A stretch of 64,000 bases of DNA from an uncultured Dehalococcoidia bacterium (GTDB lineage Bacteria; Chloroflexota; Dehalococcoidia; Lucifugimonadales; GCA-2712585). Below are positions 1 to 50,594 of the stretch, piece after piece; the stretch's first letter is position 1, and every line of letters starts with the position of its first letter. Under the pieces are notes generated by a model. The model worked only from the letters and a program-made list of their open reading frames with translations, was not told the origin of the DNA and did not search any database. Both the position numbers and the translations under genes were made by a program. Location of the stretch: the NCBI GenBank assembly GCA_951812825.1, contig OX638324.1, forward strand, positions 1,115,141-1,179,140, given 5' to 3'.

Positions 1-1035
1 CTGGAAGATACGGTCTATGACCTCCTTGGAGTGGGGGAAAGTGCCCTCGTCGTGGGGGTAGTCGCTGCCCCAGAGAAGGGCGTGGTCGCCCACGTAGTCC
101 AGGGTGCTGAGGGCCACGGGATCGTCGCCGAAGGTGACGTGGCCCTGGCGTCGGAAGTAATCGCTGGGCTTCATGTCCAGCTTCGGCTCTATCCACATGT
201 GCTTGCGCTCGTACTGCTCGTCCAGAGCATAGAGGTTCCAGGCCAGCCAACCGGCGCCGCACTCTACGATGACGAAGTGGAGGTTGGGGTGACGCATGGG
301 CACGCCGGAGCTCAGGAGCAGGGTAGTGGGGCGGATGCCCTCGGCCATTGCGATTATCATGTAGGAGAGGAAGCCGCCGTTGCTCTCTTCGCCGGCGTTC
401 TCAGGGAGATGGTCCTCGGTGCCGGTGATGAAGTGGAGGCTGAAGATGAGGCCGGTGTCCTCCAAGGCGTTCCAGAGTGGCTCATAGACAGGCAGGTTGT
501 AGGGCTGGTCCTTGATGCCTATGGGTGCGCTGACCAGTCGGAAGCCCATCTTGGCCAGGCGGTAGACCTCATCCACGGCCCTGGGGACGTTTATGGTGGG
601 CAGGATGGCGGCGGGGGCAAAGCGGTCTGGACGGGAACTGAAAAGCTCGTGAATCCAGTCGTTGTACGCCTGGGCGGCGGCCATCTGGAAATCGCCGTCG
701 GGGGAGGCCATGAGGCCGAGGAGAGAGTTACAGTAGATGACCTCCGCCGATACGTTGTCGCGCTGCTGGTCCTGAAGTCGGCGGGAAATGTCCCTGCCAC
801 CGCTGGGGTCGTCTCGAAACTGACGATTCTTGTCGTCGTCGGAGATGCGGGACTCGGCGATGTCGATACGACGGGGCTTGCGGCCTTCGATGATGGAGTA
901 GACGCCGCCGTCCCTCTCTTCGCGGTGAGGGAGACGGTGACGGTACTGCTCGGGAACACGTTGCAGAAAGTCGTCATCCTCGTCCACGTGGGAGTCGGCG
1001 GAGATGTACTTCAGTCCATTGGCGTAGGCGTTCAT
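1..1035 (-). CDS. Amidohydrolase family (amidohydrolase_2) metal-dependent hydrolase, partial
   Basis: An open minus-strand frame starts at the ATG at 1035-1033 (MNAYANGLKYISADSHVDE) and runs off the left edge without a stop, giving about 345 visible residues. The N-terminal ISADSHVDE and the late GSDYPHDEGTFPHS motif match the metal-binding ends of the amidohydrolase_2 (TIM-barrel, COG2159) family, which hydrolyses or decarboxylates small cyclic or carboxylated substrates. The substrate cannot be inferred. The 160 bp before the divergent exonuclease gene contains a TATAAT on the minus strand at 1070-1065 without a clear -35. A long plus-strand frame over the same region is its shadow. A second member of the family lies at 8673-9752. 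Confidence 0.85.
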   Translation of the reverse strand, partial: MNAYANGLKYISADSHVDEDDDFLQRVPEQYRHRLPHREERDGGVYSIIEGRKPRRIDIAESRISDDDKNRQFRDDPSGGRDISRRLQDQQRDNVSAEVIYCNSLLGLMASPDGDFQMAAAQAYNDWIHELFSSRPDRFAPAAILPTINVPRAVDEVYRLAKMGFRLVSAPIGIKDQPYNLPVYEPLWNALEDTGLIFSLHFITGTEDHLPENAGEESNGGFLSYMIIAMAEGIRPTTLLLSSGVPMRHPNLHFVIVECGAGWLAWNLYALDEQYERKHMWIEPKLDMKPSDYFRRQGHVTFGDDPVALSTLDYVGDHALLWGSDYPHDEGTFPHSKEVIDRIFQ

Positions 1036-4400: not shown

Positions 4401-5807
4401 TTAAGCGAACTGGTACTCCCTGGTAGCTGCGATGAGCTGGAGCACCCTGCCTGTGCGGCGGGCGAAGTCACTGCGCTGTTCTTCTGTGTCACGGGATAGG
4501 GGGCCGCCCTGCTCCACGTGGGCGATGAGGGCGGCGCGGGCCTGCTCGCCGATGGTGAGGGGGCCCACGAGCTCCAGGCACCCATCGACGAAGTCGGGGG
4601 CGGACATCCGGGACTCGGTGGCGAGGCGGTTGATGATGTTCTGCACGCCGGGCATGGTGGTGTCGCCGACGCGCTCGGCGACGAAGTTGACGCGGCTGGA
4701 GAGGGAACCACTGTTGATCCACTCCTTGCCGGCGTGCCAGCCTTCGACGCTGGGCGGGTTCAAGATCATCTGGCCCATGTAGCCTGCCTGGGTCACGAGA
4801 GCGTCGATGCCGGGCTTGGGAGTGATATAGTCCTCGACGAGGCGGAGGGTGCCGACGACGACCTCCACGGGACTCTTTACCTTGGCGTAGTGGACGCTCT
4901 CGTCTTTGAAGAAGTCGGAGTTGAAGAGGGCGCGCATGACGGAGCGCATGTCGTAGCCCGACTGGAGATAGGCGTCGGCGAGGATGTTGACGGCGGCGCC
5001 GTCCCTGGGGGGAGTGTGGGGCCAGGCGGGGACGTGGGGCTCGTCGGCAACGAAGAAGTTGTAGAGGTGACGGGCGATGAAGCGAGCGGTGGCGGGCTGT
5101 CTGACGACGATGTCGAGAATATCGTCGCCGTTGAAGCGGCCACGCTGGCCGAGGAAGGTCTTTTCGCCATCGTCGTGGTCGTCCGGCTTGTACTCGAACT
5201 CGAGGAAGTAGCGCTGGAAGGGGTAGAGGGGCGGGAAGGGCTTGTGGGTCCAGCCGGTGAAGGCCCTGGAGGCTTCCTTGACGTCGTCTTCAGTGTAGTT
5301 GCCGACGCCCATGGTGAAGAGCTCGAGAAGCTCGCGGCCCCAGTTTTCGTTGATTGCTCCCTTGTGGTTGTCGCGGTTGTCCAGATAGATGATCATGGCG
5401 GGGTCTCTCGACAGGTCGCCGAGGAGTTCCCGGTAGTTGCCCAGGCAGTGACGTCGGAGCATTTCAATCTGGACCTGAACGGTCTGGGGGTGGTCCACCT
5501 TGGCGTTGCCGGTGCAGAGGATGGAGTGCCAGAAAAGGGTCATTTTCTCTTCCAGGGGGCGCTTGGTGGAGACCATGCGCTGGAGCCACCAGCCCTGAGT
5601 TTCAGGGAGGCCGTTGCCGTAGCGGGCGCCGATGTGGTGGCGACGGGCAAGATCTTCTTCCCACGGGGGCTGTTGCTCCGGGTTAAGCAGTTCCTCGACG
5701 GTGGCTTCGTACCCGTTGGCGACGCGGCGTTCCAGTTCTTCACGGCTTGCGCCGAAACCGGCGCGGCGCATGAGGTGTGCCATGAGGGCAATATCTTTTT
5801 CGGACAT
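4401..5807 (-). CDS. DUF1800 family protein
   Basis: A 468-residue DUF1800 protein. Characteristic features are the N-terminal ALMAHLMRRAGFGAS segment, MTLFWHSILCT near residue 90, ENWGRELLELFTMGVGNYTEDDV near 180 and the FTGW segment soon after. The function of the family is unknown, but it is nearly always encoded directly before DUF1501, as here (19 bp gap). It is probably the first gene of the three-gene minus-strand unit ending with the NHL propeller. Confidence 0.9.
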   Translation of the reverse strand: MSEKDIALMAHLMRRAGFGASREELERRVANGYEATVEELLNPEQQPPWEEDLARRHHIGARYGNGLPETQGWWLQRMVSTKRPLEEKMTLFWHSILCTGNAKVDHPQTVQVQIEMLRRHCLGNYRELLGDLSRDPAMIIYLDNRDNHKGAINENWGRELLELFTMGVGNYTEDDVKEASRAFTGWTHKPFPPLYPFQRYFLEFEYKPDDHDDGEKTFLGQRGRFNGDDILDIVVRQPATARFIARHLYNFFVADEPHVPAWPHTPPRDGAAVNILADAYLQSGYDMRSVMRALFNSDFFKDESVHYAKVKSPVEVVVGTLRLVEDYITPKPGIDALVTQAGYMGQMILNPPSVEGWHAGKEWINSGSLSSRVNFVAERVGDTTMPGVQNIINRLATESRMSAPDFVDGCLELVGPLTIGEQARAALIAHVEQGGPLSRDTEEQRSDFARRTGRVLQLIAATREYQFA

Positions 5808-5969
5808 TCCACCAACCCCCTGTTGCTTGAATTTGACGTTTTCAGTTAGCGAACGGTTAGTTTAGGAATTTACCACATCTCAATTTGGGATTCAATGAAG
5901 GTTGAACCGTCATAACACAGAGGCGGGGCGTCGAAAGGGGAATGGGATTCGCAATTTTGGGATGCGGCG

Positions 5970-35342: not shown

Positions 35343-36212
35343 ATGACGGCTATAAGCACTACAACGAGAGGTACGGAGACCAGGCTCAGAGCGGTGGCAA
35401 GGCGTCGTGGGCTTACCATGACCGAGCTTGCAGGTAAAATGGGCGTGACCGCGGGATACTTGTCCAGGATTGCCATGGGAGGCAGACCCTGGACTCCCAC
35501 CATGAGGGAGAAGGCGATGGCCGTGCTGGGAGAGGTTCCCGCACAGGGAGTCGTCTACAGACAGGGAGGTGTGGTGAACGGGCAGAGCAGCTACATCAGG
35601 GAGCGGGCCAGGGAGCTGGGCATGAGCATGCAGAACCTAGCCGACCGGGTTGGAGTTTCCTACGGCTATATGGTACGGGCGTCCCGGGGCCGCAGGAACA
35701 TGAGCGTGAAGGTTCAGGCCCGGGTGGAATCGGCCCTGAAGGCTCCGGTCAGGGTCTCTCCCGAACAGTGCGCAGGCATCGACAGGGAGGCCGTGCGGGA
35801 GCGGATGAGAGCCCATGGCATCAGCCAGAATGAGGTGGCCCGGCGAGGTGGCATCAGCACCGGCCACCTCTCCCAGATCATGAACGGCAATCGCATCCCC
35901 TCGCCGGGGGTGCTGAAGCGACTACACGGGGTGCTCTTCCGCCGGACGCAGGCGGAGCGAGTCATGCCCGTCGAGCTCAAGGTGCTGGGTTGGCGCAAGG
36001 GTGAACGGAGCGGGATGGTCGTGCGCGGCGCCGGCGGCCCTGGGAACCGGGAAAGAGAAGACACCGTGCGGACCGGTGGAAGGGTGCCTGAGGGGGCGAA
36101 AGTGGAGTACGCATTCCGCACCGGTTACGACGGCATGGGCCGAGTCTCGGTGACCCACCTTGTCCAGCGGGGCTGTTCCACCATGCTGACGGAGCAAATA
36201 GACGCGACTTGA
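35343..36212 (+). CDS. Protein with three tandem HTH (XRE/Cro-like) domains
   Basis: A 289-residue protein. Three HTH units are visible: RGLTMTELAGKMGVTAGYLSRIAMGGR near residue 25, LGMSMQNLADRVGVSYGYMVRASRGRR near 92 and HGISQNEVARRGGISTGHLSQIMNGNR near 160. The C-terminal ~70 residues are not recognised. GGAGGAAG precedes ATG at 35343. It is likely a DNA-binding regulator of the neighbouring cassettes; targets unknown. Confidence 0.8.
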   Translation: MTAISTTTRGTETRLRAVARRRGLTMTELAGKMGVTAGYLSRIAMGGRPWTPTMREKAMAVLGEVPAQGVVYRQGGVVNGQSSYIRERARELGMSMQNLADRVGVSYGYMVRASRGRRNMSVKVQARVESALKAPVRVSPEQCAGIDREAVRERMRAHGISQNEVARRGGISTGHLSQIMNGNRIPSPGVLKRLHGVLFRRTQAERVMPVELKVLGWRKGERSGMVVRGAGGPGNREREDTVRTGGRVPEGAKVEYAFRTGYDGMGRVSVTHLVQRGCSTMLTEQIDAT

Positions 36213-36719: not shown

Positions 36720-37892
36720 TCAGGGATGATTAATCGACTGCCAACTCCTAGCAGCTAACGTTACCAGACGCGCCGCCTCATCGATTTCCTCATCGGTATT
36801 GAAGCGGCCAAAACTGAATCTTATGGATGATTCGGCCTCTACCTCACTTAACCCAAGAGATCTGAGAACGTGAGATGGTTCTGGCACACCAGTTGTGCAC
36901 GCGGAACCTGTGGCAGCGGCAAGGTGGGGCTGAAGGGACCCTAAAATATCTTGGGCCACTAGGCCGCTAAAGCGGAGGTTGGCATTTCCGGGATGCCTTG
37001 AGTCACCGGTGGGTCCATTCAGCAATACAGTTGGGACTTGCTCCTTGAGCAGTTTCACGAAGGAGTCCCGCTGTCTCGCCACTCGGCTTCGCTCCTTTCG
37101 ACCTTCAATCGAACGAAGAATGTCGATGGCGGAAGCCATTCCCATGCACAATGGAACGGGAACTGTGCCTGACCTCAGCCCGTTCTGTTGTCCGCCTCCG
37201 TAAATGATTGGCTCCACCAAATGCTGGACATCACGCCTTATGAAAAGGGCGCCGATTCCCTTAGGACCGTATATCTTATGCCCTGAAAGGCTTATCAGAT
37301 CGGCTTGGGATGCCAATTGCTCCATGTCCATAGCACATGGAGCCTGTGCAGCATCACAGTGGAACAGAATGCCATAGGATTGAAGCATTCTTGAGATGGT
37401 TCCAATGTCCTGAATGGTTCCAATTTCGTTGTTCACGGCCATAATGGAAACCATAAGCACCGATTCATCCAGCATCTCCTGGAGAGCGCCCAAATCTACA
37501 AAGCCTTCTTCGTCTACTGGAATGATCTCAACCGCAAGTCCTTCCCGCTCAGCTAGAGATCTTGCTGCTTCAAGCACACACTTGTGCTCTATCGCACTCA
37601 CCAAGATACGCTGTCTCCCTGAGTTGGCACGACGGGCTAGACCTAGCAATGCAAGGTTATTGGATTCTGTGGCACCTGACGTAAAGATCAACTCGTCAGG
37701 ATCCGCACCGATAAGGTTAGCGACAGATATGGCAGACTTTTCTACTGCGTCTGAGGCATGCCATCCAACCACATGATCATTAGAGTGAGGATTCCCATAC
37801 ATTTCTCTCCAATAGGGTTCCATCCCCTCAACAACGCGAGGATCTACCGGAGTGGTGGCCTGATAGTCTGCGTAGATTGTTCTAGAAGGCAT
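36720..37892 (-). CDS. Cysteine desulfurase (IscS/NifS/DndA-like)
   Basis: A 390-residue PLP enzyme that takes sulfur from cysteine and passes it on as persulfide. Motifs: YADYQATTPVDPRV at the start, TSGATESNNLAL near 70, IEHKCVLE near 100, the PLP-lysine SLSGHKIYGPKG near 202 and the sulfur-carrying Cys in ATGSACTTG near 325. ATG at 37892 is chosen over an upstream TTG. It is divergent from the DUF4007-led operon, 136 bp away, and probably supplies sulfur to the DndC-like protein. Confidence 0.9.
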   Translation of the reverse strand: MPSRTIYADYQATTPVDPRVVEGMEPYWREMYGNPHSNDHVVGWHASDAVEKSAISVANLIGADPDELIFTSGATESNNLALLGLARRANSGRQRILVSAIEHKCVLEAARSLAEREGLAVEIIPVDEEGFVDLGALQEMLDESVLMVSIMAVNNEIGTIQDIGTISRMLQSYGILFHCDAAQAPCAMDMEQLASQADLISLSGHKIYGPKGIGALFIRRDVQHLVEPIIYGGGQQNGLRSGTVPVPLCMGMASAIDILRSIEGRKERSRVARQRDSFVKLLKEQVPTVLLNGPTGDSRHPGNANLRFSGLVAQDILGSLQPHLAAATGSACTTGVPEPSHVLRSLGLSEVEAESSIRFSFGRFNTDEEIDEAARLVTLAARSWQSINHP

Positions 37893-38028
37893 AGTCCTCA
37901 ACTCCGCATCAGAGGGTGGGAAGTCCCGTGAATTCCTTCAAACCGATGATTCTGAGATTAGAGTCTAACTACAAAGTACACTAGGAGTATGATATCATCC
38001 AACTGGACGAATCATCCAGGAGCAAACT
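37893..38028. promoter_or_regulatory. Divergent promoter region with ATCATCCA repeat
   Basis: ATCATCCA occurs at 37994-38001 and 38011-38018 (17-bp period), just before the DUF4007 ribosome site. TATGAT at 37988-37993 is a -10-like element for the rightward operon; no good -35 is visible. The repeat could be an operator controlling modification and restriction together. Confidence 0.4.
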
Positions 38029-38994
38029 ATGTCGCGAGGTTTCATCTTTCGGGAAGGTTACCGTCCTCAGCTCTCAGGACATGAAACGTTTCCTCTTCGA
38101 TATGGCTGGCTAAAGAAGGCTTTCGATGCAGTACAGTCAACCACAGGCAATGGCGACAATAGATCCGTCTTCAACGGCGACGACGCCATTGCCCGTTTCG
38201 GTGTTGGCAAAAACATGGTTGCGTCCATACGTCATTGGGCACATGTGACCGGAATTATAGATGATCGACGTAGCGAGCATCAAATTTGCAGTACGGATTT
38301 AGGCAGACTACTTTTTGCGGACGATGGCATTGATCCATACATGGAGAACCCTGCTACATCGTGGCTTGTTCATTGGAACCTCGCGGGACAACCTGACAAG
38401 ACCACTTGGTTCTGGGCCTTCAACAACTATCCTGCCCTCTTCTTTGAGCGCGAAATGCTCGTATATGGAATCGTCAGGCTCGCTGAGGATCAGGCATGGC
38501 CGAGATGGTCCGTAGCCACGATCAAAAGGGATGTTGCCTGCTTTGTGCGGACCTACGTGCCGCAGCCCACAACTAAGAAAGCGAGCTACGAAGATTCTCT
38601 GGAGTCTCCCCTTACAGAGCTGGGATTAATAAGACCCACCGGTCGTCGTGATGGATTTCGATTCGTCCGGGGCCCCAAGCCTTCCTTGGGCGTCGGCGTC
38701 TTGTGTTACGCTATAACGGAATTTTGGGGGCAAAATTTCGATTCGGCCAACTCCTTGTCCTTTGAGGCCTTAGCCCACTCACCAGGCTCCCCTGGCAGGG
38801 TCTTTCTATTGGATGAGAACAGTCTTGTGGACCAGCTTGGTGGATTGGAAGAACTTACTAATGGCGAATATCGGTGGTCTGAGACGGCCGGCTTGAAGCA
38901 GTTGATCAGAGAGCGACCACTGACCCATAAAGACGCTCTAAGGGTTTTGGCGAAAGATTACGGCGTGCATCACGATGAGGACGAAGCGTCGTGA
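38029..38994 (+). CDS. DUF4007 family protein
   Basis: A 321-residue DUF4007 protein: LSGHETFPLRYGWLKKAFDAV is the family's N-terminal signature, followed by GVGKNMVASIRHWAHVTGII. DUF4007 genes occur beside phosphorothioation-type and sulfur-using PAPS-reductase-like genes; its own activity is unknown, with a helical DNA-binding role suspected. AGGAG lies before ATG at 38029. GTGA overlap with the next gene indicates coupling. First gene of the rightward eight-gene operon. Confidence 0.85.
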   Translation: MSRGFIFREGYRPQLSGHETFPLRYGWLKKAFDAVQSTTGNGDNRSVFNGDDAIARFGVGKNMVASIRHWAHVTGIIDDRRSEHQICSTDLGRLLFADDGIDPYMENPATSWLVHWNLAGQPDKTTWFWAFNNYPALFFEREMLVYGIVRLAEDQAWPRWSVATIKRDVACFVRTYVPQPTTKKASYEDSLESPLTELGLIRPTGRRDGFRFVRGPKPSLGVGVLCYAITEFWGQNFDSANSLSFEALAHSPGSPGRVFLLDENSLVDQLGGLEELTNGEYRWSETAGLKQLIRERPLTHKDALRVLAKDYGVHHDEDEAS

Positions 38995-41900
38995 CCACTT
39001 TGTCGGAACATGTTCGCGTCTCCCGGCGGTTTCGCAGATCTATTCGAATCGATACGGACCTCTCAGACCCTGCGGCTCTTGAGGGGTTCGTGTGTCCGCC
39101 ATCGTCTGCCGCCGTGCTTGAGACGATGGCTAGGCACGTCTCGGAATCTGGTCAAGCTGCTTTCACCTGGACAGGTCCCTATGGTACGGGGAAGTCCAGC
39201 CTAGCCGTAGCCCTCAGCTCTCTGATGAACGGCAACGCTGAAGTAAGGAATGCCACATTTGGCGTTCTCGGTGCTGGGACTTCCAATATCCTCTTGGATG
39301 CCTTACCGCCCAAGCCAAGGGGTTGGCGTATTCTTCCAGTGGTAGGAAGAAGAGATCAACCCGCACGGGTCATTGGAGAAGCCCTTCAAAGATTACGGAT
39401 GGTTCGTAAAAGTAGACTTGCCAATTGGAATGACGAAGACGTCCTTGAGTCCCTCATGCGCATCTCTAGGCGCACCCCAAAGCAATACGGCGGGCTAATG
39501 GTCTTTATAGATGAAATGGGGAAGTTCCTCGAGGGTGCTGCCTATGATGGCACCGATATCTACTTCTTCCAGCAGCTGGCGGAAATCGCCTCACGCAGCA
39601 ATGGCAGACTGATAGTCGTTGGCATTCTGCACCAGGCCTTTGAGGAATACGCATTCCGACTATCCCGCGAGATGCGCGATGAGTGGGCGAAGATCCAGGG
39701 AAGATTTCTTGATCTCTCGGTCACCATCGGGCCTGACGAACAACTTGAGCTTTTGGGGCGTGCCATCGAAATCGACGTGGACAATGAAATGCGGACCCCA
39801 ATTGCGAAGGAAGTGTCTCGGTTACTGCACCGCGACACTCCGTCGCGATTGTTGGAAGACTGTTGGCCTCTGCATCCTGTCACAGCATGCTTGCTTGGAC
39901 CCATTTCTCGTAGGCGATTCGGGCAGAACCAGCGCAGCCTATTCAGTTTCCTGAATTCAATGGAACCCCAAGGATTCCAAGATTTTCTTCGGGTGGCCAC
40001 AGACGGGGATCTATTTGCCCCAGAGCAGGTCTGGGACTATCTGAGGGCAAACCTGGAGCCATCAATTATTGCCTCCCCCGACGGCCATCGCTGGGCAATG
40101 GCAGTGGATGCCTTGGAGCGGTGTCGCGCCTTAGGAGGCGATGACACTGAAGAGCGTCTCTTGAAGGTCATCGGATTGGTAGACATGTTCAAGGAACGCT
40201 CTGGACTTGTTGCAAGCCGCGAACTGCTTTGCCTGGCAATTCATGATTGCACGGAGCGACAGATTCTAGAGGGCCTTGAGCGCCTACAAGAGGCCTCATT
40301 GGTGGTCTTTCGCAAGTTCAGCAACAGTTACAGCGTCTTCGAGGGTAGTGACTTCGACATTGAGCGCGCTGTCGACGAAGCATATGAGTCTGTGCAGGAA
40401 GTCGATTTCGATAGGCTCACCGCTCTCTCTGGTCTGCAGCCCGTAATCGCTAAGCGCCACTACCATGAAACAGGAGCCATTAGATGGTTTGAAACCGATG
40501 TGGTGCCTTTGCGGGATATCGAAAGCATCGCAGAGAACTACAAGCCTCGCGGTAGCTCTGTTGGCACGTTTCTGCTGGCCCTCCCTACCCGAGGTGACTC
40601 GCCCGCATTGGTAAGGAAGGTTGCCGACAACCTCGATAGTATATTGCCAGCAGGGGTTGTGGTAGGTATACCCGGCGGGAAGGCTTGGGATATAGAAAGC
40701 CTAGCTCGTGAACTGATTGCCTTAGAGCGGGTACAGGGTACGACCCCTGAGCTCCGAGGAGACAGGGTAGCACGCATAGAAGTCGAGACCCGCATTGGGG
40801 ATCTTCAAGACCGGATTGAGCAAGAGTTGAGACGAGCGTTGCGTAGCGCCGTGTGGCGTGGTAGAGGATTAGACCCAGGGCACCGCTCTCCGGCATCGCT
40901 GAATGCCCTCGCTTCCAACATGGCCGACGACAGGTTCCACGAATCGCCTCAACTTAAGAATGAGCTCTTGAATCGAATCAGGCCATCCAGTAACGCCATA
41001 GCCGCACAGAACGCACTGCTTAGACGAATGGTTCTCCACGAAGGCGAGGAGAGACTTGGGATTGAGGGATTCCCAGCCGAAGGCGGGCTGTTCGCCTCAC
41101 TACTTGAAACTACCGGCATATACCGGAACACGCTGGACGTATGGAGGTTTGTGGCTCCCAAGCCCGACCGTGACCCCCACAACCTTCTTCCCATTTGGGA
41201 AGCTGCTACGCAGTTGTTGGAAGAGAATTCACATCGCGCCGTATCCGTTGAGGAAATCTTCGATCTGTGGCGAAGGCCTCCTTTCGGTGTCAAGGACGGC
41301 CTGCTGGCTGTTCTCGTAGTCGCCTTCGCTCTGTCCAAGGCTCATACCCTCGCCTTCTATAGGCAGGGAGTATTTCAGGTGCGATTGACTGATCTGGACA
41401 CAGACTATCTCGCCAAAGACCCTTCAGATATTCAGCTGCGATGGATGGACATGTCCAACGTATCTCGTCAATTGCTGGCAAATATGGCCGACATCGTTCG
41501 AGACATGGATGATGGCAACGAGCTGCCTAACCTAGAGCCCATTGACGTGGCGAGAGGATTGGTTGCCATATACTATGGTCTTCCAGATTGGGCTGGGCGA
41601 ACGCAACGGCTGTCGAGTGTTGCAAGGCAAGTCCGGCATCTGTTCAAACAGGCCAAGGACCCTAACCAGTTGATCTTCGACGACATTCCGCAAGCCTTGA
41701 ATGGAAGAGGCAAGCCACAAGACATAAATGACATTACCCAAGTGTCAGCCATCCTTCGGGAGGCGCTGACAGAGTTGACACAGGCGTACCCCTCGATGTT
41801 GCATCGGCTCAGAGAGTTGCTCCTGTTGGAGTTGCAAGTTCCTAATGCTTCGCCTTCTATGTTGTCGGATCTTCGCGGTCGTGCAGAGAACATTTTGGGC

Positions 41901-42374
41901 GTCGGGGGGGACCACCGTTTGGAAGCATTCGTTATTCGGCTCTCTAGGTTTGATGGCTCGCACGAAGCCATGGAAAGCCTAGCTAGTATGGCAACCAACA
42001 AACCCCTTCACAATTGGGTGGACGCTGATGTCGACCGGGCAGCCCTTGAGCTAGCTGAACTGGCCCAGAGATTCCTCCGTGTGGAAGCCCTTGTTCGAGT
42101 GAAAGGTCGTGCCAGTAAGCGTCATGCTATGGCAGTGTTTATTGGATTGGACGGGAGACCTACGCCACTGCACGAGGAATTTGAAATAGGAGACATTGAG
42201 AAAGCAGAGGTGGACATCCTGGTTGAACAGCTAGATGAGTCGCTGAAGAAACACGGCGGAGATCGTCGAAATGTGATACTTGCCGCATTGGCTGAGGTAA
42301 GTGCTCGTCACCTTGGCGATACCGCCACGGAACTACGGTTGGATTCACTTGAGGTAGAACAGGACGCACTATGA
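38991..42374 (+). CDS. Large P-loop ATPase
   Basis: A 1127-residue ATPase. Walker A GPYGTGKSSLAVALSS is near residues 62-77 and Walker B LMVFIDEMGKFLEG near 170; the remaining ~900 residues are mainly helical and not recognised. The size and position suggest a motor or assembly platform comparable to the large ATPases of BREX or Dnd restriction modules, but I cannot assign it to BrxC, PglY or DptH. GTG start at 38991 overlaps the DUF4007 stop; its own stop overlaps the next start (ATGA). Confidence 0.8.
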   Translation: MTTLSEHVRVSRRFRRSIRIDTDLSDPAALEGFVCPPSSAAVLETMARHVSESGQAAFTWTGPYGTGKSSLAVALSSLMNGNAEVRNATFGVLGAGTSNILLDALPPKPRGWRILPVVGRRDQPARVIGEALQRLRMVRKSRLANWNDEDVLESLMRISRRTPKQYGGLMVFIDEMGKFLEGAAYDGTDIYFFQQLAEIASRSNGRLIVVGILHQAFEEYAFRLSREMRDEWAKIQGRFLDLSVTIGPDEQLELLGRAIEIDVDNEMRTPIAKEVSRLLHRDTPSRLLEDCWPLHPVTACLLGPISRRRFGQNQRSLFSFLNSMEPQGFQDFLRVATDGDLFAPEQVWDYLRANLEPSIIASPDGHRWAMAVDALERCRALGGDDTEERLLKVIGLVDMFKERSGLVASRELLCLAIHDCTERQILEGLERLQEASLVVFRKFSNSYSVFEGSDFDIERAVDEAYESVQEVDFDRLTALSGLQPVIAKRHYHETGAIRWFETDVVPLRDIESIAENYKPRGSSVGTFLLALPTRGDSPALVRKVADNLDSILPAGVVVGIPGGKAWDIESLARELIALERVQGTTPELRGDRVARIEVETRIGDLQDRIEQELRRALRSAVWRGRGLDPGHRSPASLNALASNMADDRFHESPQLKNELLNRIRPSSNAIAAQNALLRRMVLHEGEERLGIEGFPAEGGLFASLLETTGIYRNTLDVWRFVAPKPDRDPHNLLPIWEAATQLLEENSHRAVSVEEIFDLWRRPPFGVKDGLLAVLVVAFALSKAHTLAFYRQGVFQVRLTDLDTDYLAKDPSDIQLRWMDMSNVSRQLLANMADIVRDMDDGNELPNLEPIDVARGLVAIYYGLPDWAGRTQRLSSVARQVRHLFKQAKDPNQLIFDDIPQALNGRGKPQDINDITQVSAILREALTELTQAYPSMLHRLRELLLLELQVPNASPSMLSDLRGRAENILGVGGDHRLEAFVIRLSRFDGSHEAMESLASMATNKPLHNWVDADVDRAALELAELAQRFLRVEALVRVKGRASKRHAMAVFIGLDGRPTPLHEEFEIGDIEKAEVDILVEQLDESLKKHGGDRRNVILAALAEVSARHLGDTATELRLDSLEVEQDAL

Positions 42375-43213
42375 GCAACGTTCGAGCCGAGTATCATGTC
42401 TTGGGATTGTCTGGAGGTCGCGACAGTGCGGCATTGGCCATCTACATGCGACAGAATCATCCCGACCTGGAACTAGACTATTTCTTCACGGACACAGGAA
42501 AAGAACTTCCAGAAGTGTATGAATTTCTCGTAAAGCTTGAAGGGTTCCTGGGCCAGCCCATCTTGCGCCTGAACCCGGACAGGGATTTCGATTTCTGGCT
42601 AAAGCAGTATGGCAATTTCTTACCCTCCGCCCAGACCCGATGGTGCACTAGACAGTTGAAGTTGCGTCCATTTGAGCAGTGGATTCGTCCACTACTGGAT
42701 AAAGGTGACCTGGTGTTCAGCTATGTTGCAATTAGAGCTGATGAAGAATACCGAGAGGGATACGCCTCCAAGCATAAGAATCTAAGGGTGAGGTTGCCCT
42801 TTAAGGATGCCGGAATTGACAAAGGCGGTGTATTGGACATTCTTGATAGTGTCGGGGTAGGGTTGCCAACTTACTATGAGTGGAGGACCCGGAGTGGTTG
42901 TACTTTCTGTTTCTTTCAACAGAAGATAGAATGGGTTCGCTTGATGGAACGGCACCCGCATTATTTTGAGGAAGCCAAGCGCTACGAGAAGACTGCAATT
43001 GACCACGGTTCACCATTCAGTTGGAGTCAAGGCGAATCCTTGGAACAACTCGAGAAACCGGAGCGCGTGGCGCAAATCAAGGAGAGTCATAGAATTCGTT
43101 TGGAGCGAATTCGTGCAAAACAGCCGATAAACCCTCTGAGATCGGATGCAGAACCCATCGATATCGATGACATTTATGGGAAATCCAAGGTTTGTCTAGC
43201 ATGTCACAAATGA
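42371..43213 (+). CDS. DndC-like PP-loop ATP pyrophosphatase (PAPS reductase family)
   Basis: A 280-residue protein. The PP-loop LSGGRDSAAL is near residues 13-22, with Arg where Lys is usual. Cysteines are in RWCTRQLK near 90, GCTFCFF near 176-179 and KVCLACHK at the C-terminus, suggesting a 4Fe-4S cluster as in DndC. DndC-type enzymes activate the DNA backbone with ATP and insert sulfur. It lies next to the large ATPase and across from the cysteine desulfurase, so a sulfur-transfer role is likely. Confidence 0.85.
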   Translation: MSNVRAEYHVLGLSGGRDSAALAIYMRQNHPDLELDYFFTDTGKELPEVYEFLVKLEGFLGQPILRLNPDRDFDFWLKQYGNFLPSAQTRWCTRQLKLRPFEQWIRPLLDKGDLVFSYVAIRADEEYREGYASKHKNLRVRLPFKDAGIDKGGVLDILDSVGVGLPTYYEWRTRSGCTFCFFQQKIEWVRLMERHPHYFEEAKRYEKTAIDHGSPFSWSQGESLEQLEKPERVAQIKESHRIRLERIRAKQPINPLRSDAEPIDIDDIYGKSKVCLACHK

Positions 43214-43287
43214 TCCTTTTCCACCTAAGGCGCTGGGTGCTAGGCCATTTGCCCCGACTCTTGTTGGCCAAAGAGGATTCAGGGTAA

Positions 43288-45618
43288 ATGCAGTTTATCG
43301 GTAACAGTCTATCGTTGGATAACTGGTTGGCCCGTGGTGGAACTGCACACAATGGCATGGCTTACGGCCCACCCACCTCAGCATACCCCTATGGAACAAA
43401 TGGATGTCCGCTCGCCCCACTTCCTTATAGGTCGGAATTGGGTAATACGGAGCTGCCAAATGAGATTTGCGCTGCCCTCGGTGCCTCTAATCTGACTGTG
43501 GCAGATTTGAGTTTGGATGCGTGGAATCAGTTGAATCTTCATGTGCTTTCGCCTGAGACTCGTCAAGAGTTGAGCGCGTTCCTCTATAGGTTACCAATTC
43601 CGGGAAAGAAGGTGGCAATCCAGGGTGGCCTTCCTATCTCATGGCTACTCGCGTTACCTACCAGTCCCCGCCTAAGGAACGCATTAAACCGACATTTTCA
43701 ACACAGTAAACGCAATGATTTTCTTGAGGGTCCGATCGATTGCGAAGAATTCTTGAAAATTTGGGGTTGCGGTAAAACAGCCTTGATAGAATTCTTGTGC
43801 GTTGTTGAGAGTGTAGAACTTGGCTTCGTCCCTGAGCAACTGAACCCCCAGAAGTCTTCCCAGCCCATGTCAATAAGTGCCGCAAAATTTCAAGCAGCAA
43901 TTCAAGAGGCGACTGCAAGAGTTCTTCGCGCCTCTGATTTGCTGAAAGGGCACTTTCAAGATTTTGCCGCATGGGCCTTGTCGGAGACCGAGGCAAAGAC
44001 AGTGGGAGAAGCAATCACTTGGGCGAGGCAGGGTCGTAGTTCAGAGGCGTCTTGGCAAGCAGTAGCTGACATGGAATTGGCGGAGCTTGTCGAGATTCCA
44101 AGGCATCCATATGACATCATCGAATCCTGGATGACCGATCTTCCGGGGAGAGAGGGGTACATCTTCAGGAATCGTGTTGGGCTAATTCGCGGTAATTGCA
44201 CGTTGCAACAATTGGCGAATGAACTAGGAATTTCCCGTGAACGTGTCCGACAGCTTCAAAAGCGAACGTTATCGAAGTTCAGGTCCTTCACTCGAAAGAC
44301 TGCCGCATCTCCAATCAGGTGGCGAATTGAAACCATAAAGCAAATGGTTGGAACCGCTGCCCCGTTGGAACATGTTGAACAGGTGCTCAAGCCGGCCGAG
44401 GGGCAAACAGATTTTAGGTTCGTCTTGTTGAGGATTGCCGGTCCCTACGACATTACTGACGGATGGATTGTGTTGAGATCTGCTGTTGACAACGACCCAA
44501 CGGAGGAATTATGTAAGATGTCCGATGAGATCGGATTTATTGACCAAGCTTTAGCAGAACGCAAACTTACAGAATGGGGACTCCACCCTGGTTTTCACAA
44601 AGAGTGGCTTACACGTACTGGAAGAATCCGTGAGTTTGGAGGCCGGCTCGCTCGTTGGGAAGGTTCAATCGGGGACAAGTTAGTTATAGGCCTTGCTGAC
44701 CTTGATAGGCCCACCACTGTAGATGTATTGCTCGACTATGTGCAAGAGGATAGATCGAGGGGGTCAGCTCTCAATGCGTTGTCTAGTGACAATCGGGTAG
44801 TGCGAGTTAACCGTAAAGAATGGGCTCTCGCTTCCTGGGGGCTTACCGAATATAGCAGCATAGCGATGTCGATACGCAACTTGGTTTCCGCATCGGGAGG
44901 ACGCGTTCACATCGAAGACGTCATTGCCGGAATTCAAAACACCTTTGGGTCCGCCGAGGCTTCGGTACGGGCATATTGCTACGCTCCGATGTTCGTGTTA
45001 GAAGACAGCTGGGTCAGCCTACGTCATGATTTGGGCACGTTCAATTATCCAAACGCCTCACCACGTAACGCGCGGGGTGTATTCGCTTTAGGACCTTGTC
45101 GAGTATCGCTACTGTTAGAAGTCAATGATGCCCTTCTACGAGGAAGCGGACGGAGCCTACCCTCGGTAGTAGGAGCTATATTACGAGTTCCTATCAACCA
45201 AGAGTTGATTTTCCGCAATGAGTTCGGAGCCTCAATCTCGGTTACTTATCCAGAAACGTCCTTTCTTGGCCCTGCAATGGGTTCGGTAAGATCTTTAGCC
45301 GAGTCAGTTGGTGCTAGGCTTGGACAATTTCTTACTCTGACGCTTGACCGTTCCAACATGGTGGTAACGGGCGTCTCGACCGCCCATGGCGTGTTTCAAC
45401 CTAGTTGGCGTCTAGTGGCAAGATTGACTGGCATAACGGCTAGTTCTGGAATTGAGGGATTGGCCAGCGCCTTGGATTGCAAAGTAGGGGAAGTTCGGGC
45501 ATTGCTTAAGTCAAGAGGAGACGAGGCCGTATTGCAGGCGATTCCGACGGAGAATTCCACATCATTGAGGCTATATGACGCGTTGAGCCGACTCGAAGCA
45601 CAATTGCAGCAGAATTAA
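43288..45618 (+). CDS. Large protein with sigma-70 region 4-like HTH
   Basis: A 776-residue protein mostly not recognised. Around residues 305-335, CTLQQLANELGISRERVRQLQKRTLSKF is a sigma-70 region 4-type HTH. No sigma region 2 is visible, so it is not a normal sigma factor. The flanks contain several segments that may be winged-helix-like repeats. It is encoded inside the modification operon, 74 bp after the DndC-like gene; it may recognise the target sequence. That is inference. Confidence 0.75.
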   Translation: MQFIGNSLSLDNWLARGGTAHNGMAYGPPTSAYPYGTNGCPLAPLPYRSELGNTELPNEICAALGASNLTVADLSLDAWNQLNLHVLSPETRQELSAFLYRLPIPGKKVAIQGGLPISWLLALPTSPRLRNALNRHFQHSKRNDFLEGPIDCEEFLKIWGCGKTALIEFLCVVESVELGFVPEQLNPQKSSQPMSISAAKFQAAIQEATARVLRASDLLKGHFQDFAAWALSETEAKTVGEAITWARQGRSSEASWQAVADMELAELVEIPRHPYDIIESWMTDLPGREGYIFRNRVGLIRGNCTLQQLANELGISRERVRQLQKRTLSKFRSFTRKTAASPIRWRIETIKQMVGTAAPLEHVEQVLKPAEGQTDFRFVLLRIAGPYDITDGWIVLRSAVDNDPTEELCKMSDEIGFIDQALAERKLTEWGLHPGFHKEWLTRTGRIREFGGRLARWEGSIGDKLVIGLADLDRPTTVDVLLDYVQEDRSRGSALNALSSDNRVVRVNRKEWALASWGLTEYSSIAMSIRNLVSASGGRVHIEDVIAGIQNTFGSAEASVRAYCYAPMFVLEDSWVSLRHDLGTFNYPNASPRNARGVFALGPCRVSLLLEVNDALLRGSGRSLPSVVGAILRVPINQELIFRNEFGASISVTYPETSFLGPAMGSVRSLAESVGARLGQFLTLTLDRSNMVVTGVSTAHGVFQPSWRLVARLTGITASSGIEGLASALDCKVGEVRALLKSRGDEAVLQAIPTENSTSLRLYDALSRLEAQLQQN

Positions 45619-45630
45619 GGAAAAGTCGCG

Positions 45631-47793
45631 TTGGGATTCGACATTACATTCGAAAATATACGACCGGCTTACGAGATACCTGAAGACGACCTAGTAGGCG
45701 AAGTTCTGGTGCCAGCGATGCAAAACTGTGAGGAGTTGCGGGTCGGGGCCGGATTCTTTTCTTCGAGATGCCTTGCTCAAATTGCTCCAGGGTTGGCGTC
45801 ATTTGTCAACGACACCGTGTGCACACTAGATTTGATGGTTTCGCCCGAAATTAGCCAAGAGGACCAGGAGGCCATAATAACGGGAGTCCGGAAGCCCGCC
45901 GAAGTCTTAAGTTGTGCCTTGGTTAAGCTATTTGACGGTGCCCAAATGTCTACTTCGGCAATTGAACGTTACACTGTAGAAACCCTAGGATACCTTGTCG
46001 CAAGCCGGCGGCTGCGAATGCGGGTAATCTTCATGAAGCGCGGCATGTATCACAAGAAGATATGGTTGTTCCGGTCTGGCCAGCATTGGCTAGCCGTACA
46101 CGGCTCGGGCAACGCAACTGAGCGCGGACTTCTGGTCAATGGAGAACAAATGTCAATCGACCGTGCATGGGTTGATGGAAAACAATCCCGCACACGGGTG
46201 AATCTCTTTTTGGAACAATGGACGAGGCAATGGAAAAACCGAAATCCATCCTCGCTCACGGTAAAGGTGGACAGGGCACTGGATTTCTTACGTGGATTCG
46301 CCCGGACTAAACCGCCTACGGTCGCTGATTTCTGGGCTGCCTGGCAACAAGACTACGAAAATGGAATCGAATCAAGCTGTCCCTCGTTTCTTGACTCGGG
46401 GTCTATTGATCAACGCCTCAAAGTCCCGGAATCCCTTGTGTGGCGGGAAGGGCGTTTTGGGCATCAAGGCCGCGCAGTCGAGACGCTCCTAAGCCATGGC
46501 GGCGGTATCGTCGCAATTGCAACTGGCGGTGGGAAAACCAAGACCGCACTAATTGCAGCATCCGAAATGCAAAATGCAGAACAAGGACACGTTTGTGTAG
46601 TAATCTTGGCCCCGACTCGGCCCCTGATACGTCAATGGACTGATGAAGTCCGTAGTTTTGGTATTGAACCAGTCGTCCTCTCAGGCATGAACGTAGATCT
46701 CCGCACCCAAGAATTGGAGCGCACGGCGGTGGCATTCTCCTCACAAGGGAAAAGAACGGCGGTGCTCCTTCTTACCAACGCTCTGTTCACCCGACGGGAT
46801 TCATTTGAACGTCGTTGGCTTCAGCAACTGCCAGACTCGGTAACGCGCATTCTCATTGCCGATGAAGTTCACAACTTGGGTGCAAAGTCGTTCACCGCTA
46901 ATCTTCCAGAATTCTTCCGCCAACGAATTGGACTTTCGGCCACTCCTATTCGACAGTATGACCCGGATGGTACAGACCAACTATTTGACTTTTTCGGCGG
47001 TCCTCCACAGTTTGAGTTTTCCCTCGGAGAGGCAATAAAATCAGGTTGCCTCGTGCCTTACGAGTACTACATTCATCCGGTGGAATTTCAGCCTGATGAA
47101 ATGGAACTTTACCATGACCTTACCGAAAGGCTAACAAAGGCAGGCTTTCGAATCGATGATGATGGCAGAACAGTCGGCTTAACGCAAAGGGTGGCAAAAT
47201 TGTTGCGAGATCGTAGAGCTTTGGTCGAGCAAGCAGACGCAAAGATTCGCTCGTTAGAGACGGTGCTTGAGCGGACCGGCCCAAGCAATATCAAAAGGAC
47301 CTTAATTTACGCCTCCGCCAAAGCAACGGCCAGAGGCAAGGTGAAGCAAATAATTGAGGTTAATAGGGTTCTTGAGAAATTGAATGTCATTTCCCACCAA
47401 TACACCAGCGAAGAAACTAGTTCAAAGCGATCCCGGTCGTATCTTGACCGTTTCGGTGCAGGAGACTTCAAGGTCCTTACTGCTATGAAGGTGCTTGATG
47501 AGGGTGTTGATATTCCCCACACGGACACTGCGTTTCTACTAGCAAGCAGCACCGTGGAAAGGGAGTGGGTGCAGCGTAGAGGGAGAATACTACGTCATGC
47601 CCCAGGGAAAGATGTTGCGCGATTGCACGACTTCATCGTAGTTCCTCCAGACCTTGAATCTCCTGCGTCAAGGTCCCTGCTTCGGTCTGAGTTGAGGAGG
47701 GCGTCAGCTTTCGCGGATCTTGCACAAAATGAATTTGATCCCGACGGACCCAATACGGTAATACGTCAGCTGGAGGAGAATATATGGAGGTAA
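45631..47793 (+). CDS. PLD-like/DEAD-type helicase, phosphorothioation restriction candidate
   Basis: A 720-residue protein. The N-terminal domain has YHKKIWLFRSGQHWLAVHGSGNATERGLL near 138-166, a PLD-like nuclease pattern (HxK...GSGN). The SF2 motor follows: ATGGGKTKTALIAA near 297, IADEVHNLG near 409, GLSATPIRQYD near 436 and QRRGRILRHAPGK near 648. Architecture fits a DNA restriction enzyme that loads and cuts. The start is TTG at 45631; an alternative is not obvious. Gap to the previous gene 12 bp. Confidence 0.82.
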   Translation: MGFDITFENIRPAYEIPEDDLVGEVLVPAMQNCEELRVGAGFFSSRCLAQIAPGLASFVNDTVCTLDLMVSPEISQEDQEAIITGVRKPAEVLSCALVKLFDGAQMSTSAIERYTVETLGYLVASRRLRMRVIFMKRGMYHKKIWLFRSGQHWLAVHGSGNATERGLLVNGEQMSIDRAWVDGKQSRTRVNLFLEQWTRQWKNRNPSSLTVKVDRALDFLRGFARTKPPTVADFWAAWQQDYENGIESSCPSFLDSGSIDQRLKVPESLVWREGRFGHQGRAVETLLSHGGGIVAIATGGGKTKTALIAASEMQNAEQGHVCVVILAPTRPLIRQWTDEVRSFGIEPVVLSGMNVDLRTQELERTAVAFSSQGKRTAVLLLTNALFTRRDSFERRWLQQLPDSVTRILIADEVHNLGAKSFTANLPEFFRQRIGLSATPIRQYDPDGTDQLFDFFGGPPQFEFSLGEAIKSGCLVPYEYYIHPVEFQPDEMELYHDLTERLTKAGFRIDDDGRTVGLTQRVAKLLRDRRALVEQADAKIRSLETVLERTGPSNIKRTLIYASAKATARGKVKQIIEVNRVLEKLNVISHQYTSEETSSKRSRSYLDRFGAGDFKVLTAMKVLDEGVDIPHTDTAFLLASSTVEREWVQRRGRILRHAPGKDVARLHDFIVVPPDLESPASRSLLRSELRRASAFADLAQNEFDPDGPNTVIRQLEENIWR

Positions 47794-47797
47794 TAGC

Positions 47798-48016
47798 ATG
47801 GCAGAAGGCTCGGTAAAGCCCATCATTGACGCTGCTCAAGAAGCGGTCGGCTACATAAACGAACCCTATGACGGGTATCATGTAGACTTGGTTAACACAT
47901 TGACGAAGGCGCTTCAATTGCTGCATTCTGAACCTGGCAAGCGAGCTCAACGAAGGGCCACCGAGAGTTTAATTAAGGGATTCGCAGGGGAAGTCAGTGC
48001 AAGGGTTGGTGAATAA
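47798..48016 (+). CDS. Small hypothetical protein of the cluster
   Basis: A 72-residue helical protein: IIDAAQEAVGYINEPYDGYHVDLVNTLTKALQLL. Not recognised. It lies 4 bp after the helicase and 2 bp before the DndD-like gene, so it is surely part of the operon. Its size and slot recall the small DndE, but I see no sequence match. Confidence 0.7.
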   Translation: MAEGSVKPIIDAAQEAVGYINEPYDGYHVDLVNTLTKALQLLHSEPGKRAQRRATESLIKGFAGEVSARVGE

Positions 48017-48018
48017 CT

Positions 48019-50163
48019 ATGAGGCTGGAGAGTGCTCATATTACAAATTTCAAACTAGTTAGAGACGTATCACTTGAATTTTCCAGCGATTTATCTCGCC
48101 CACTTACAGTCGTTCGAGCAGAGAACGGTTCTGGGAAAACATCGATTCTTTACGCTCTGCGCTGGGCTATGTACGGCGACAATGGAATCCCGCCGAGAAT
48201 GCGGCTGACTTCGACGGCCCTGCCTCCGGGCAAGCCGGTACAAGTCCAGGTCCGCATCGAATTCACAACCTCCGACCCATATACAAGAGCCGAAGGGCGT
48301 TATCGCCTAATACGGACTTGTGAGGAATCCCCTGGTGAGGGTGACAAGTATTCACGAAGCCCTTCGCGGCTAAGACTGCTTAGACGAACCGATAGAGGGG
48401 AGGAAGACATCGAGGAAGGAGTGGAGGGTCTGATTGCTGGCGTATTGCCCAGGAATTTGGCTGATGTTTTTTTCACCAATGGGGATGACGTTCAGAGATT
48501 TATTGCAGGAGATCAGCATGGCGGAAGAAAGCGTCAGGAAGCGGTTCACCAAGCAATCCGCAAATTGCTCGGACTGGAGGATGTTGAGACAGTTGAAGAA
48601 AATTTCACAGCTGCCGCAAGAAGATTTAGGAAAGAATCTACTTCTACGGGCGGAGAGGAAGTACAAGCCGCCGGTGACGAACTAGAGAGCATCGAGGACG
48701 AACTCAAACGGCAAAGAAACAACCTATCAGTGATCAATCAGCGCAAGAGCGCTCTGGATGAACAGATTCGAACCGATGACAGGGCCCTTGACGAGATTAA
48801 GGGAATTGGGGACTTGGACTTAATCCAGGCAAGAATACGTGAGATCGAACAAGATATCCGCCACCTAGAAAGTCAAGAGACCGCAATCCGACAGCAAATG
48901 AAGGAACTCCTACGGTCCGAGGATTTGTCAACAGGACATCTCGGAGAACAACTCGACTGTGGAACTACAGCATTGGCAGAGCTTGTGGATAGAAAAGTTA
49001 TTCCTGGAAGCTCGATTGAGGTACTAATCGACCGCCTTCAACTAGGGACTTGCATCTGCGGTGAGGTGCTTATTTCCGGTACTCCTAGGCATAACCACCT
49101 GACTAGCCTTATAGAAGAACAAAGGCAGGTTGTGCCTAGACTACAGCGCCTCACTGCCTTGTGGCATGAAACCCGCAATCGTATGACTGTGACGTCGGAG
49201 GAAGGCGAAATTGGCAATTTGGCCTCAAAAAAGGCTGCTTCATTGAACCGACAGTATACTGAGTGTCTCGACAGGCAGCGGCGAAAAAACGCGGACCTAA
49301 AAGCAGAACAAGATAAGCGTAGTCGGATAAACCAAGAGAAAGTTCAATTCCTAACCCGCCGATTACACTCTAATCGCCAGAAACGCTCTCAATTTGATAG
49401 AGAAGAAGGCCTATTAACTGGCAACATTCAAGAGTTAGACGAAAAAATGAGTGTATGTCAAGACCGTTTTAAGGAAGCGATGCAACGGGCTACACTCAAC
49501 AAAAGAATAGAGCGACAGTCGACTGTAGCTAGAGACCTAATGGAACTTACTAAGGGAACCCTAGACCGTTTGAAGTCGAACTATGTGCATAGGGTCTCCG
49601 CGCGAATGAACAAACTGTTCTTAGAGATAGTTGGGGCAGATCCCTCAACTGACACAACGGTGTTTACTGGTGTACACATTAACGAAACTACGTATGACAT
49701 CGTGATCCGAACACTCACGGGCAGAACCTTGGACGCTGATACGGAACTGAATGGCGCTGCACAGAGAGCCCTGACCCTATCGTTCATCTGGGCCCTTATG
49801 GAAGTAGCTGAACGCGAGGCTCCCCGAATAATAGATAGCCCGCTTGGCATGACCTCTGGATCAGTCAAACAGCGGATGGTCGATTTGCTCACCAGACCTA
49901 TAATCTCGGAAGAGTTACCATATCAGGCGGTTCTATTCATGACGAGGTCCGAGATTCGTGATATTGAGGACCTAATCGCAGAGAGGGCTGGGCTAGTGAC
50001 GACTCTGACCTGTTCAAAGGACTATCCTGTGGATCTGATCAATGATTGGAGCGATGGCTTTCCCACAGTAAGAACCTGTCAATGTGACCACACGGAGATA
50101 TGTAGCATCTGCGGGAGACGTTCGGACTCGGGAAAGTTCAGATTTCGGGAGGCTTCCCTTTGA
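48019..50163 (+). CDS. DndD-like SMC/Rad50-type ATPase
   Basis: A 714-residue protein. Walker A RAENGSGKTSILYALRW is near residues 33-50, long coiled coils span about 190-330 and 360-530, with a CxC hook (TCICGE) near 343. The signature LNGAAQRALTLSFIWAL near 576 and Walker B RIIDSPLG near 602 close the head. The C-terminus adds a Cys-rich CQCDHTEICSICGRR, absent from typical DndD. DndD gives ATP-driven DNA handling for phosphorothioation. Its stop overlaps the next gene (TTGA). Confidence 0.85.
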   Translation: MRLESAHITNFKLVRDVSLEFSSDLSRPLTVVRAENGSGKTSILYALRWAMYGDNGIPPRMRLTSTALPPGKPVQVQVRIEFTTSDPYTRAEGRYRLIRTCEESPGEGDKYSRSPSRLRLLRRTDRGEEDIEEGVEGLIAGVLPRNLADVFFTNGDDVQRFIAGDQHGGRKRQEAVHQAIRKLLGLEDVETVEENFTAAARRFRKESTSTGGEEVQAAGDELESIEDELKRQRNNLSVINQRKSALDEQIRTDDRALDEIKGIGDLDLIQARIREIEQDIRHLESQETAIRQQMKELLRSEDLSTGHLGEQLDCGTTALAELVDRKVIPGSSIEVLIDRLQLGTCICGEVLISGTPRHNHLTSLIEEQRQVVPRLQRLTALWHETRNRMTVTSEEGEIGNLASKKAASLNRQYTECLDRQRRKNADLKAEQDKRSRINQEKVQFLTRRLHSNRQKRSQFDREEGLLTGNIQELDEKMSVCQDRFKEAMQRATLNKRIERQSTVARDLMELTKGTLDRLKSNYVHRVSARMNKLFLEIVGADPSTDTTVFTGVHINETTYDIVIRTLTGRTLDADTELNGAAQRALTLSFIWALMEVAEREAPRIIDSPLGMTSGSVKQRMVDLLTRPIISEELPYQAVLFMTRSEIRDIEDLIAERAGLVTTLTCSKDYPVDLINDWSDGFPTVRTCQCDHTEICSICGRRSDSGKFRFREASL

Positions 50164-50594
50164 CTGGCGATACAAGGTACCGTGACCAAGACTTATGGAT
50201 TCCAGCCTACTTTCACAAGGAGTTTGTCGCTAACAACAGACTTGTCAACAGAGGCGATCCGCGTACGCCCTTTGGCCGTCAGATCGACTTATGGTGGTAC
50301 GCCCTCGGTGTTGGTGTAGCTACAGGTCAAAGGTCCCCCCTGCCTCATCGCGACCAACTAGTGAGATTCAATGATGGAGGTATCCTCGGCTCCGACCCAT
50401 GGCGTATTACCCACCTTGAGTTATTAGTCTTAGGAGAGCAAGGTGACGCGGCGATTTCAAGCGTCTCAAATGTGATACAAACTGCTAATGAGTACGCCGC
50501 AACTGGATTCAGGATACTTGCTAAGCAACTTCGCGGTGTAGTTGACGCTCAAACTCATTTGATGGTGGAAATTGCTCGAAAAGCACAAAGATAA
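50160..50594 (+). CDS. Hypothetical protein, last gene of the cluster
   Basis: A 144-residue protein, TTG start overlapping the DndD-like stop. DPRTPFGRQIDLWWYALGVGVATGQR is a striking conserved-looking segment near residues 33-60; the rest is helical. Not recognised. Translational coupling suggests it binds the DndD-like ATPase. Confidence 0.7.
   Translation: MTGDTRYRDQDLWIPAYFHKEFVANNRLVNRGDPRTPFGRQIDLWWYALGVGVATGQRSPLPHRDQLVRFNDGGILGSDPWRITHLELLVLGEQGDAAISSVSNVIQTANEYAATGFRILAKQLRGVVDAQTHLMVEIARKAQR

Follow-up and report, generated by a model that had tools for sequence, protein, structure and literature searches.

The Ssp-Pbe gene block

The gene under study encodes a protein of 776 aa, referred to here as the region-4 protein, and is part of a block of ssp and pbe genes in the window, i.e., the whole 64,000 nt stretch of DNA that was analysed. 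The gene order is sspB-sspC-sspD-region-4 gene-pbeA-pbeB-pbeC-pbeD, with sspA divergent, and the coordinates are in Table 1. A preliminary description of this DNA had placed the gene between a DndC-like gene and a helicase gene; these neighbours can now be named sspD (PADLOC E 6e-135) and pbeA (E 3e-170). The SspABCD phosphorothioation (PT) set is complete, with PADLOC matches to sspA, sspB, sspC and sspD. Hallmarks of PbeABCD are displayed by pbeA, with a PLD/SF2 helicase, and by pbeC, an ABC ATPase with a CxC motif. The pbeA gene starts with TTG, 12 bp past the stop codon of the region-4 gene.

Table 1. Features of the Ssp-Pbe block and of the region-4 protein.
Feature	Position	Strand	Basis
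sspA / iscS-type cysteine desulfurase, divergent	36720..37901	-	PADLOC SspA E 2.4e-130
sspB (DUF4007)	38029..38994	+	Pfam DUF4007 E 1.3e-87; PADLOC SspB E 8e-106
sspC, ATPase, Walker A at residue 62	38991..42374	+	PADLOC SspC 1260 bits; motif
sspD, PAPS-reductase-like, DndC-like	42371..43213	+	PADLOC SspD E 6e-135
Gene under study, 776 aa	43288..45618	+	ORF, ATG start
Putative degenerate RNAP alpha-CTD-like region	residues ~115-175 of the 776-aa protein		alignment and low-confidence secondary structure only
Sigma-70 region 4	residues 276-336, 44113..44295	+	Pfam PF04545 E 1.1e-8; PDB sigma factors
HTH within region 4	residues 305-331, 44200-44280	+	TLQQLANELGISRERVRQLQKRTLSKF
Putative winged-HTH array	residues ~342-580 of the 776-aa protein		alignment and low-confidence secondary structure only
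Conserved C-terminal block with LRGSG	residues ~605-745		alignment and low-confidence secondary structure only
pbeA, PLD-like region and SF2 helicase	45631..47793	+	PADLOC PbeA E 3e-170; TIGR04095 below cut-off
pbeB-type small protein, 72 aa	47798..48016	+	position between pbeA and pbeC; no family match
pbeC, ABC ATPase, CxC motif at residue 345	48019..50163	+	PADLOC PbeC E 2e-46; motif
pbeD / DndE-type	50160..50594	+	TIGR04062 dnd_assoc_4 E 3.7e-6, below cut-off; position

The region-4 protein gene is found in a single copy in its own genome, and the strand opposite to its frame has stops all along it. The gene evolves under purifying selection (pN 0.20 and pS 0.65 against a 67%-identical homolog from a Chloroflexota MAG, locus L022); for the ssp genes, pN against L022 is 0.11-0.29 with pS saturated. 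The G+C content of the ssp-pbe block (36720-50594) is 49-54% vs. 57% across the window, consistent with foreign acquisition. Adjoining sspA but not part of the operon is a gene (35343-36212, + strand) for a 289-aa protein that has three HTH_3-type matches.

Domains of the region-4 protein

The 776-residue protein had been described as having a sigma region 4 helix-turn-helix (HTH) but no region 2, and the domain search bears this out. Pfam Sigma70_r4 matches residues 284-332 (E 1.1e-8, 34.9 bits vs. a cut-off of 24.1), with the HTH at residues 305-331, and no Pfam match to Sigma70_r2 is found in the protein. Full-length and NCBIfam sigma models match essentially region 4 alone, all under their own cut-offs. 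Region 4 by itself retrieves PDB sigma factors with E values down to 6e-7, and a six-homolog family profile retrieves them at E 1.5e-12. A chance HTH, considered as an explanation, is ruled out by these Pfam and PDB matches, and the protein belongs to no known helicase or regulator family in the domain search. The recognition helix is SRERVRQ vs. TRERIRQ in the host RpoD. Since there are five region-4 genes in the whole genome, accidental adjacency of one of them to pbeA is unlikely.

Beyond what had been described, alignment places a putative alpha-CTD-like region and a putative winged-HTH array in the same protein, together with a C-terminal block that is conserved. The alpha-CTD and HARE-HTH are below Pfam detection in the window protein, and both are placed by alignment only. 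The aligned position of the alpha-CTD is clear in relatives, where it is over the Pfam cut-off in L040, L026 and L151, all of which are Pbe-linked, and in L045. The order in relatives is an alpha-CTD-like domain, region 4, winged-HTH-like units and the conserved block with LRGSG. Pfam detects no enzymatic domain in the 776-aa protein, and a toxin-like part is likewise not seen. Structure prediction of the whole protein from a 2-sequence alignment gave no confident fold (pLDDT 33), thus the domain claims rest on sequence; prediction of the C-terminal 120-residue block also gave no confident fold (pLDDT 37). A profile of the protein part downstream of region 4 has no match among PDB sequences. 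By eye, the C-terminal block may resemble the B3/EcoRII-N pseudobarrel. Taken as a whole, the gene product is probably a DNA-binding protein of large size, put together from RNA polymerase parts that read promoters.

Distribution among Ssp and Pbe loci

In a survey of 400 Chloroflexota genomes, sspD is found in 33, and about 30 of these loci were compared. A homolog of the region-4 protein is confined to loci that also have Pbe, namely those of the window, L022 and L040, and the ~27 Chloroflexota Ssp loci without Pbe have none. With further Pbe loci gathered by PbeA searches, 12 of 28 (window and L022 counted) carry a region-4 ORF and represent four bacterial phyla; this proportion is not a population frequency, since the loci are a convenience sample, drawn from Chloroflexota genomes and from public plasmids, and include some near-duplicates. 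Two of the 12, L145 and L160, have an identical allele. In all 12 loci the ORF immediately adjoins pbeA or pbeD and is the sole region-4 ORF of the fetched stretch. No region-4 ORF is found in the other 16 Pbe loci, 5 haloarchaeal and 11 bacterial.

The modification partner of the region-4/Pbe loci is Ssp in some and Dnd or a methyltransferase in others, and further loci have no modification gene that was found nearby. In L022 the homolog follows sspBCD, and the DNA match extends into the pbeA start. On an Arthrobacter plasmid the region-4 gene precedes pbeA and is accompanied by dndBCDE-like genes and a nearby dndA, and plasmids from Pontibrevibacter and Ruegeria encode members of 1017-1026 aa between the dnd genes and pbeA. 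In Aurantiacibacter, where a methyltransferase precedes pbeA, a 437-aa alpha-CTD/region-4 protein is encoded immediately downstream of pbeD. In four Lactiplantibacillus plantarum plasmids (L144, L145, L158 and L160) a region-4 protein of 1080-1147 aa precedes pbeA, and no phosphorothioation genes are found within the fetched stretches; the PbeA of these plasmids is ~457 aa and without the N-terminal PLD-like part. Several of the region-4 genes overlap pbeA by 1-4 bp, with stop and start codons overlapping as TGATG in L026, L147 and L153, and an overlap of ~4 bp in the L. plantarum plasmids.

RER(V/I)RQ forms the recognition helix in 11 of the 12 Pbe-linked loci, from several phyla, the exception being L158 with REAVRQ, and the helix is essentially unchanged across modification types. 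It is decayed in several relatives that are not Pbe-linked (L024, L025a, L042 and L043). A near-invariant, RpoD-like helix across phyla fits recognition of a general -35 element and not of a private operator. The member in L040, which is on the strand opposite to its neighbours, has 31% identity to the window protein, compared with 52% for PbeA, 43% for PbeC and 55-72% for SspA-D. Between these two loci the region-4 protein has thus diverged more than the other components, as expected of a target-facing subunit.

In L106, from the same class as the window genome, a complete sigma-70-type factor of 460 aa with regions 2 and 4 (4535-5917, - strand) ends an SspBCD-Pbe operon, overlaps the preceding gene by 22 bp and occupies a place equivalent to that of the region-4 protein. 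Two haloarchaeal Pbe loci, L157 (13037-13960) and L155 (3871-4431), have an extra gene for transcription factor B or TATA-binding protein a few genes away; since haloarchaeal plasmids often carry genes of this kind, the proximity to Pbe may be chance.

Distant relatives

Distant relatives with ~23-31% identity align across much of the length of the window protein. Members from Lactiplantibacillus (Bacillota) and Rhodobacterales share region 4 with the window family, and the alpha-CTD weakly, with no homology detected outside of these two parts. Thus only a shared core is indicated for them, and common ancestry of the whole protein is not supported by the comparison.

Relatives are also found in other settings. 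Short relatives in L042 and L043 have BREX-like surroundings, each being followed by a BrxC/D-type ATPase with a helicase. Another relative, in L041, is beside a HATPase and an Mrr-type helicase, on the strand opposite to its neighbours; one in L025 is beside a UvrD-type helicase, and one in L024 is solitary on a mycobacterial plasmid with no defence context. No relatives were found in viral contigs with four query sequences, and none in phage records.

Positions 130-203 of the family profile find a HARE-HTH-like protein that L032 and L044 have in common. Its HARE-HTH match (E 2e-5) is just below the Pfam cut-off, and part of the winged-HTH array aligns with this protein. Some bacterial HARE-HTH domains are reportedly fused to the alpha-CTD helix-hairpin-helix and to sigma region 3/4 HTHs, and such fusions are said to be predicted to block RNA polymerase at promoters (both as described by Aravind and Iyer in 2012 and in the Pfam HARE-HTH entry). 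To our knowledge, a link to Pbe is absent from the 2012 description. The likeness to these fusions consists of region 4 in the window protein, the alpha-CTD in L040, L026 and L151, and the alpha-CTD plus a sub-threshold HARE-HTH match in L045; the window protein itself, however, has no Pfam-detectable alpha-CTD or HARE-HTH.

Comparison with known systems

SspABCD and PbeABCD are established systems, and defence proteins with sigma-like pieces have been described before, but in the open-access papers searched we found no account of a region-4 protein that recurs as a component of Pbe. A known type of defence thus seems to carry a promoter-reading partner that is missing from the literature searched. 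The window locus shares with published PbeABCD (PMC6459918, PMC10853773) pbeA and the CxC pbeC and, in the usual order with them, has candidates for the small pbeB and the DndE-type pbeD. It differs in having the 776-aa region-4 protein before pbeA and in its modification partner, SspABCD instead of DndCDEA. A term search of these two papers found no such component. The sspA-sspD modification genes are also those of SspABCD-SspE and SspABCD-SspFGH (PMC8092258), whereas the effector here is Pbe; neither sspE nor sspFGH was recognised at the window locus.

Other defence proteins contain similar pieces. MzaA of the MZA system (NCBIfam NF041931) also has a sigma-70-type region inside a defence-system protein, but the match of the window protein to its model is confined to region 4, with 28 bits vs. 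a cut-off of 800. PglW of type 2 BREX has an alpha-CTD-like domain and a triple winged HTH, and some DndH members have a sigma-type HTH insert in a restriction protein (PMC12839542, PMC10853773). In PglW and DndH, however, these parts are joined to a kinase or REase/HerA-FtsK, whereas the window protein has no enzymatic domain. Compared with sigma-70 family factors, it has region 4, the HTH that reads the -35 element, but is devoid of region 2, which is responsible for -10 reading and core binding.

Possible roles of the region-4 protein

The reading that we tentatively favour is that of a Pbe-linked accessory, a DNA-binding and promoter-reading partner of the PbeABCD effector. The region-4 protein is an accessory in some Pbe systems and not a core Pbe part, since PbeABCD of Haloterrigena jeotgali protects with four genes and without a region-4 protein (PMC6459918), and 16 of the 28 loci have no such ORF. 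Nor would it serve as a sigma factor, given that it has no region 2. The alpha-CTD-like region and region 4 would read sigma-70-type promoter DNA, on the UP-element side and at -35 respectively, and the winged-HTH array would add contacts to DNA or to partners. Gene order and the overlapping junctions suggest production together with PbeA. The protein could then help to place the PbeA helicase and the PbeC-PbeD complex on promoter-type DNA, while phosphorothioation of own DNA by SspABCD would spare the host. Both the protein contact and the DNA target are predicted steps. Rather more doubtful is a general form of this proposal, whereby bacterial PbeABCD would have a recurrent fifth component (alpha-CTD-like plus sigma region 4) to recognise promoters and direct the restriction helicase to them, the defence being aimed at the promoter DNA of unmodified invaders whatever mark denotes self.

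A close rival, which ranks just behind the promoter-reading Pbe partner and is itself quite possible, is a transcription regulator of the operon. Like the controller protein of a restriction-modification system, it would bind the promoter region via region 4 and the winged HTHs and set ssp/pbe expression, e.g., by delaying the restriction genes. Every recognisable part of the region-4 protein derives from transcription proteins, the HARE-HTH fusions mentioned above are reportedly predicted to block RNA polymerase, and co-translation with PbeA is also compatible with regulation. The solitary relative on the mycobacterial plasmid, the members in L040 and L041 with strands opposite to their neighbours, and the full sigma-70-type factor at the end of the L106 operon also point this way. 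However most members are larger than would be expected of an autoregulator, reaching 1147 aa, and the near-invariant RpoD-like helix argues for a general -35 element over lineage-specific operators. In addition, the sole conserved operator-like repeat, upstream of sspB, is also present in two loci without the region-4 protein. If it is a regulator, Pbe modules would nonetheless have in it a recurrent control protein for which no description was found.

Region 4 and the alpha-CTD are both contact modules of RNA polymerase, and a direct action on the polymerase should also be considered, with region 4 binding the beta flap and the protein slowing phage or host transcription in infection. None of the five haloarchaeal Pbe loci, whose hosts are without sigma-70, has the region-4 protein, a weak trend in its favour. 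Nevertheless this is unlikely, as no toxin-like or enzymatic part is seen and a DNA-binding role better accounts for the conserved recognition helix. The preliminary description had proposed that a borrowed promoter-reading HTH could read the phosphorothioate motif for the modification machinery, and the position of the gene inside a modification/restriction operon, directly after sspD, agrees with this. A sigma-70-type HTH in a phosphorothioation operon is indeed what is found, but reading of the PT motif is very improbable. Against it, the protein follows the Pbe effector and not the modification enzymes: it is absent from the ~27 Ssp loci without Pbe, and occurs beside Pbe with Dnd, a methyltransferase or no modification gene found nearby. 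Moreover, the recognition helix of a PT-motif reader should vary with the motif, but it is constant across modification types.

The means by which unmodified DNA is found and stopped by Pbe-type systems, with no visible cutting, are a question raised in PMC6459918. A promoter-reading partner, if real, would give Pbe a testable target rule. It could also unite the RNA-polymerase-derived pieces of MzaA, some DndH, the BrxL N-terminus and the PglW alpha-CTD, in that defence systems would borrow promoter recognition.

An inverted repeat upstream of sspB

A 17-bp inverted repeat similar to CTGGACG-N3-CGTCCAG (CTGGACGAATCATCCAG in the window, 38003-38019, + strand) is found at the 5′ end of sspB. 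With L022, L040, L148 and L154 it is present in five loci from two phyla, whether or not the region-4 gene is there, and these include all three Ssp loci that carry that gene. About 25 more distant Ssp loci have no such repeat, and it is not enriched genome-wide (5 sites vs. 3 for the reversed control). The possibility that it is the operator of the region-4 protein was dropped, as two Ssp-Pbe plasmids without a region-4 ORF carry it too. The phosphorothioation characteristic of SspABCD systems is single-stranded and placed at 5′-CpsCA-3′, CCA being the published motif. Both arms of the repeat contain CCA, thus it may be a PT-sensitive control site, a candidate role suggested by the motif.
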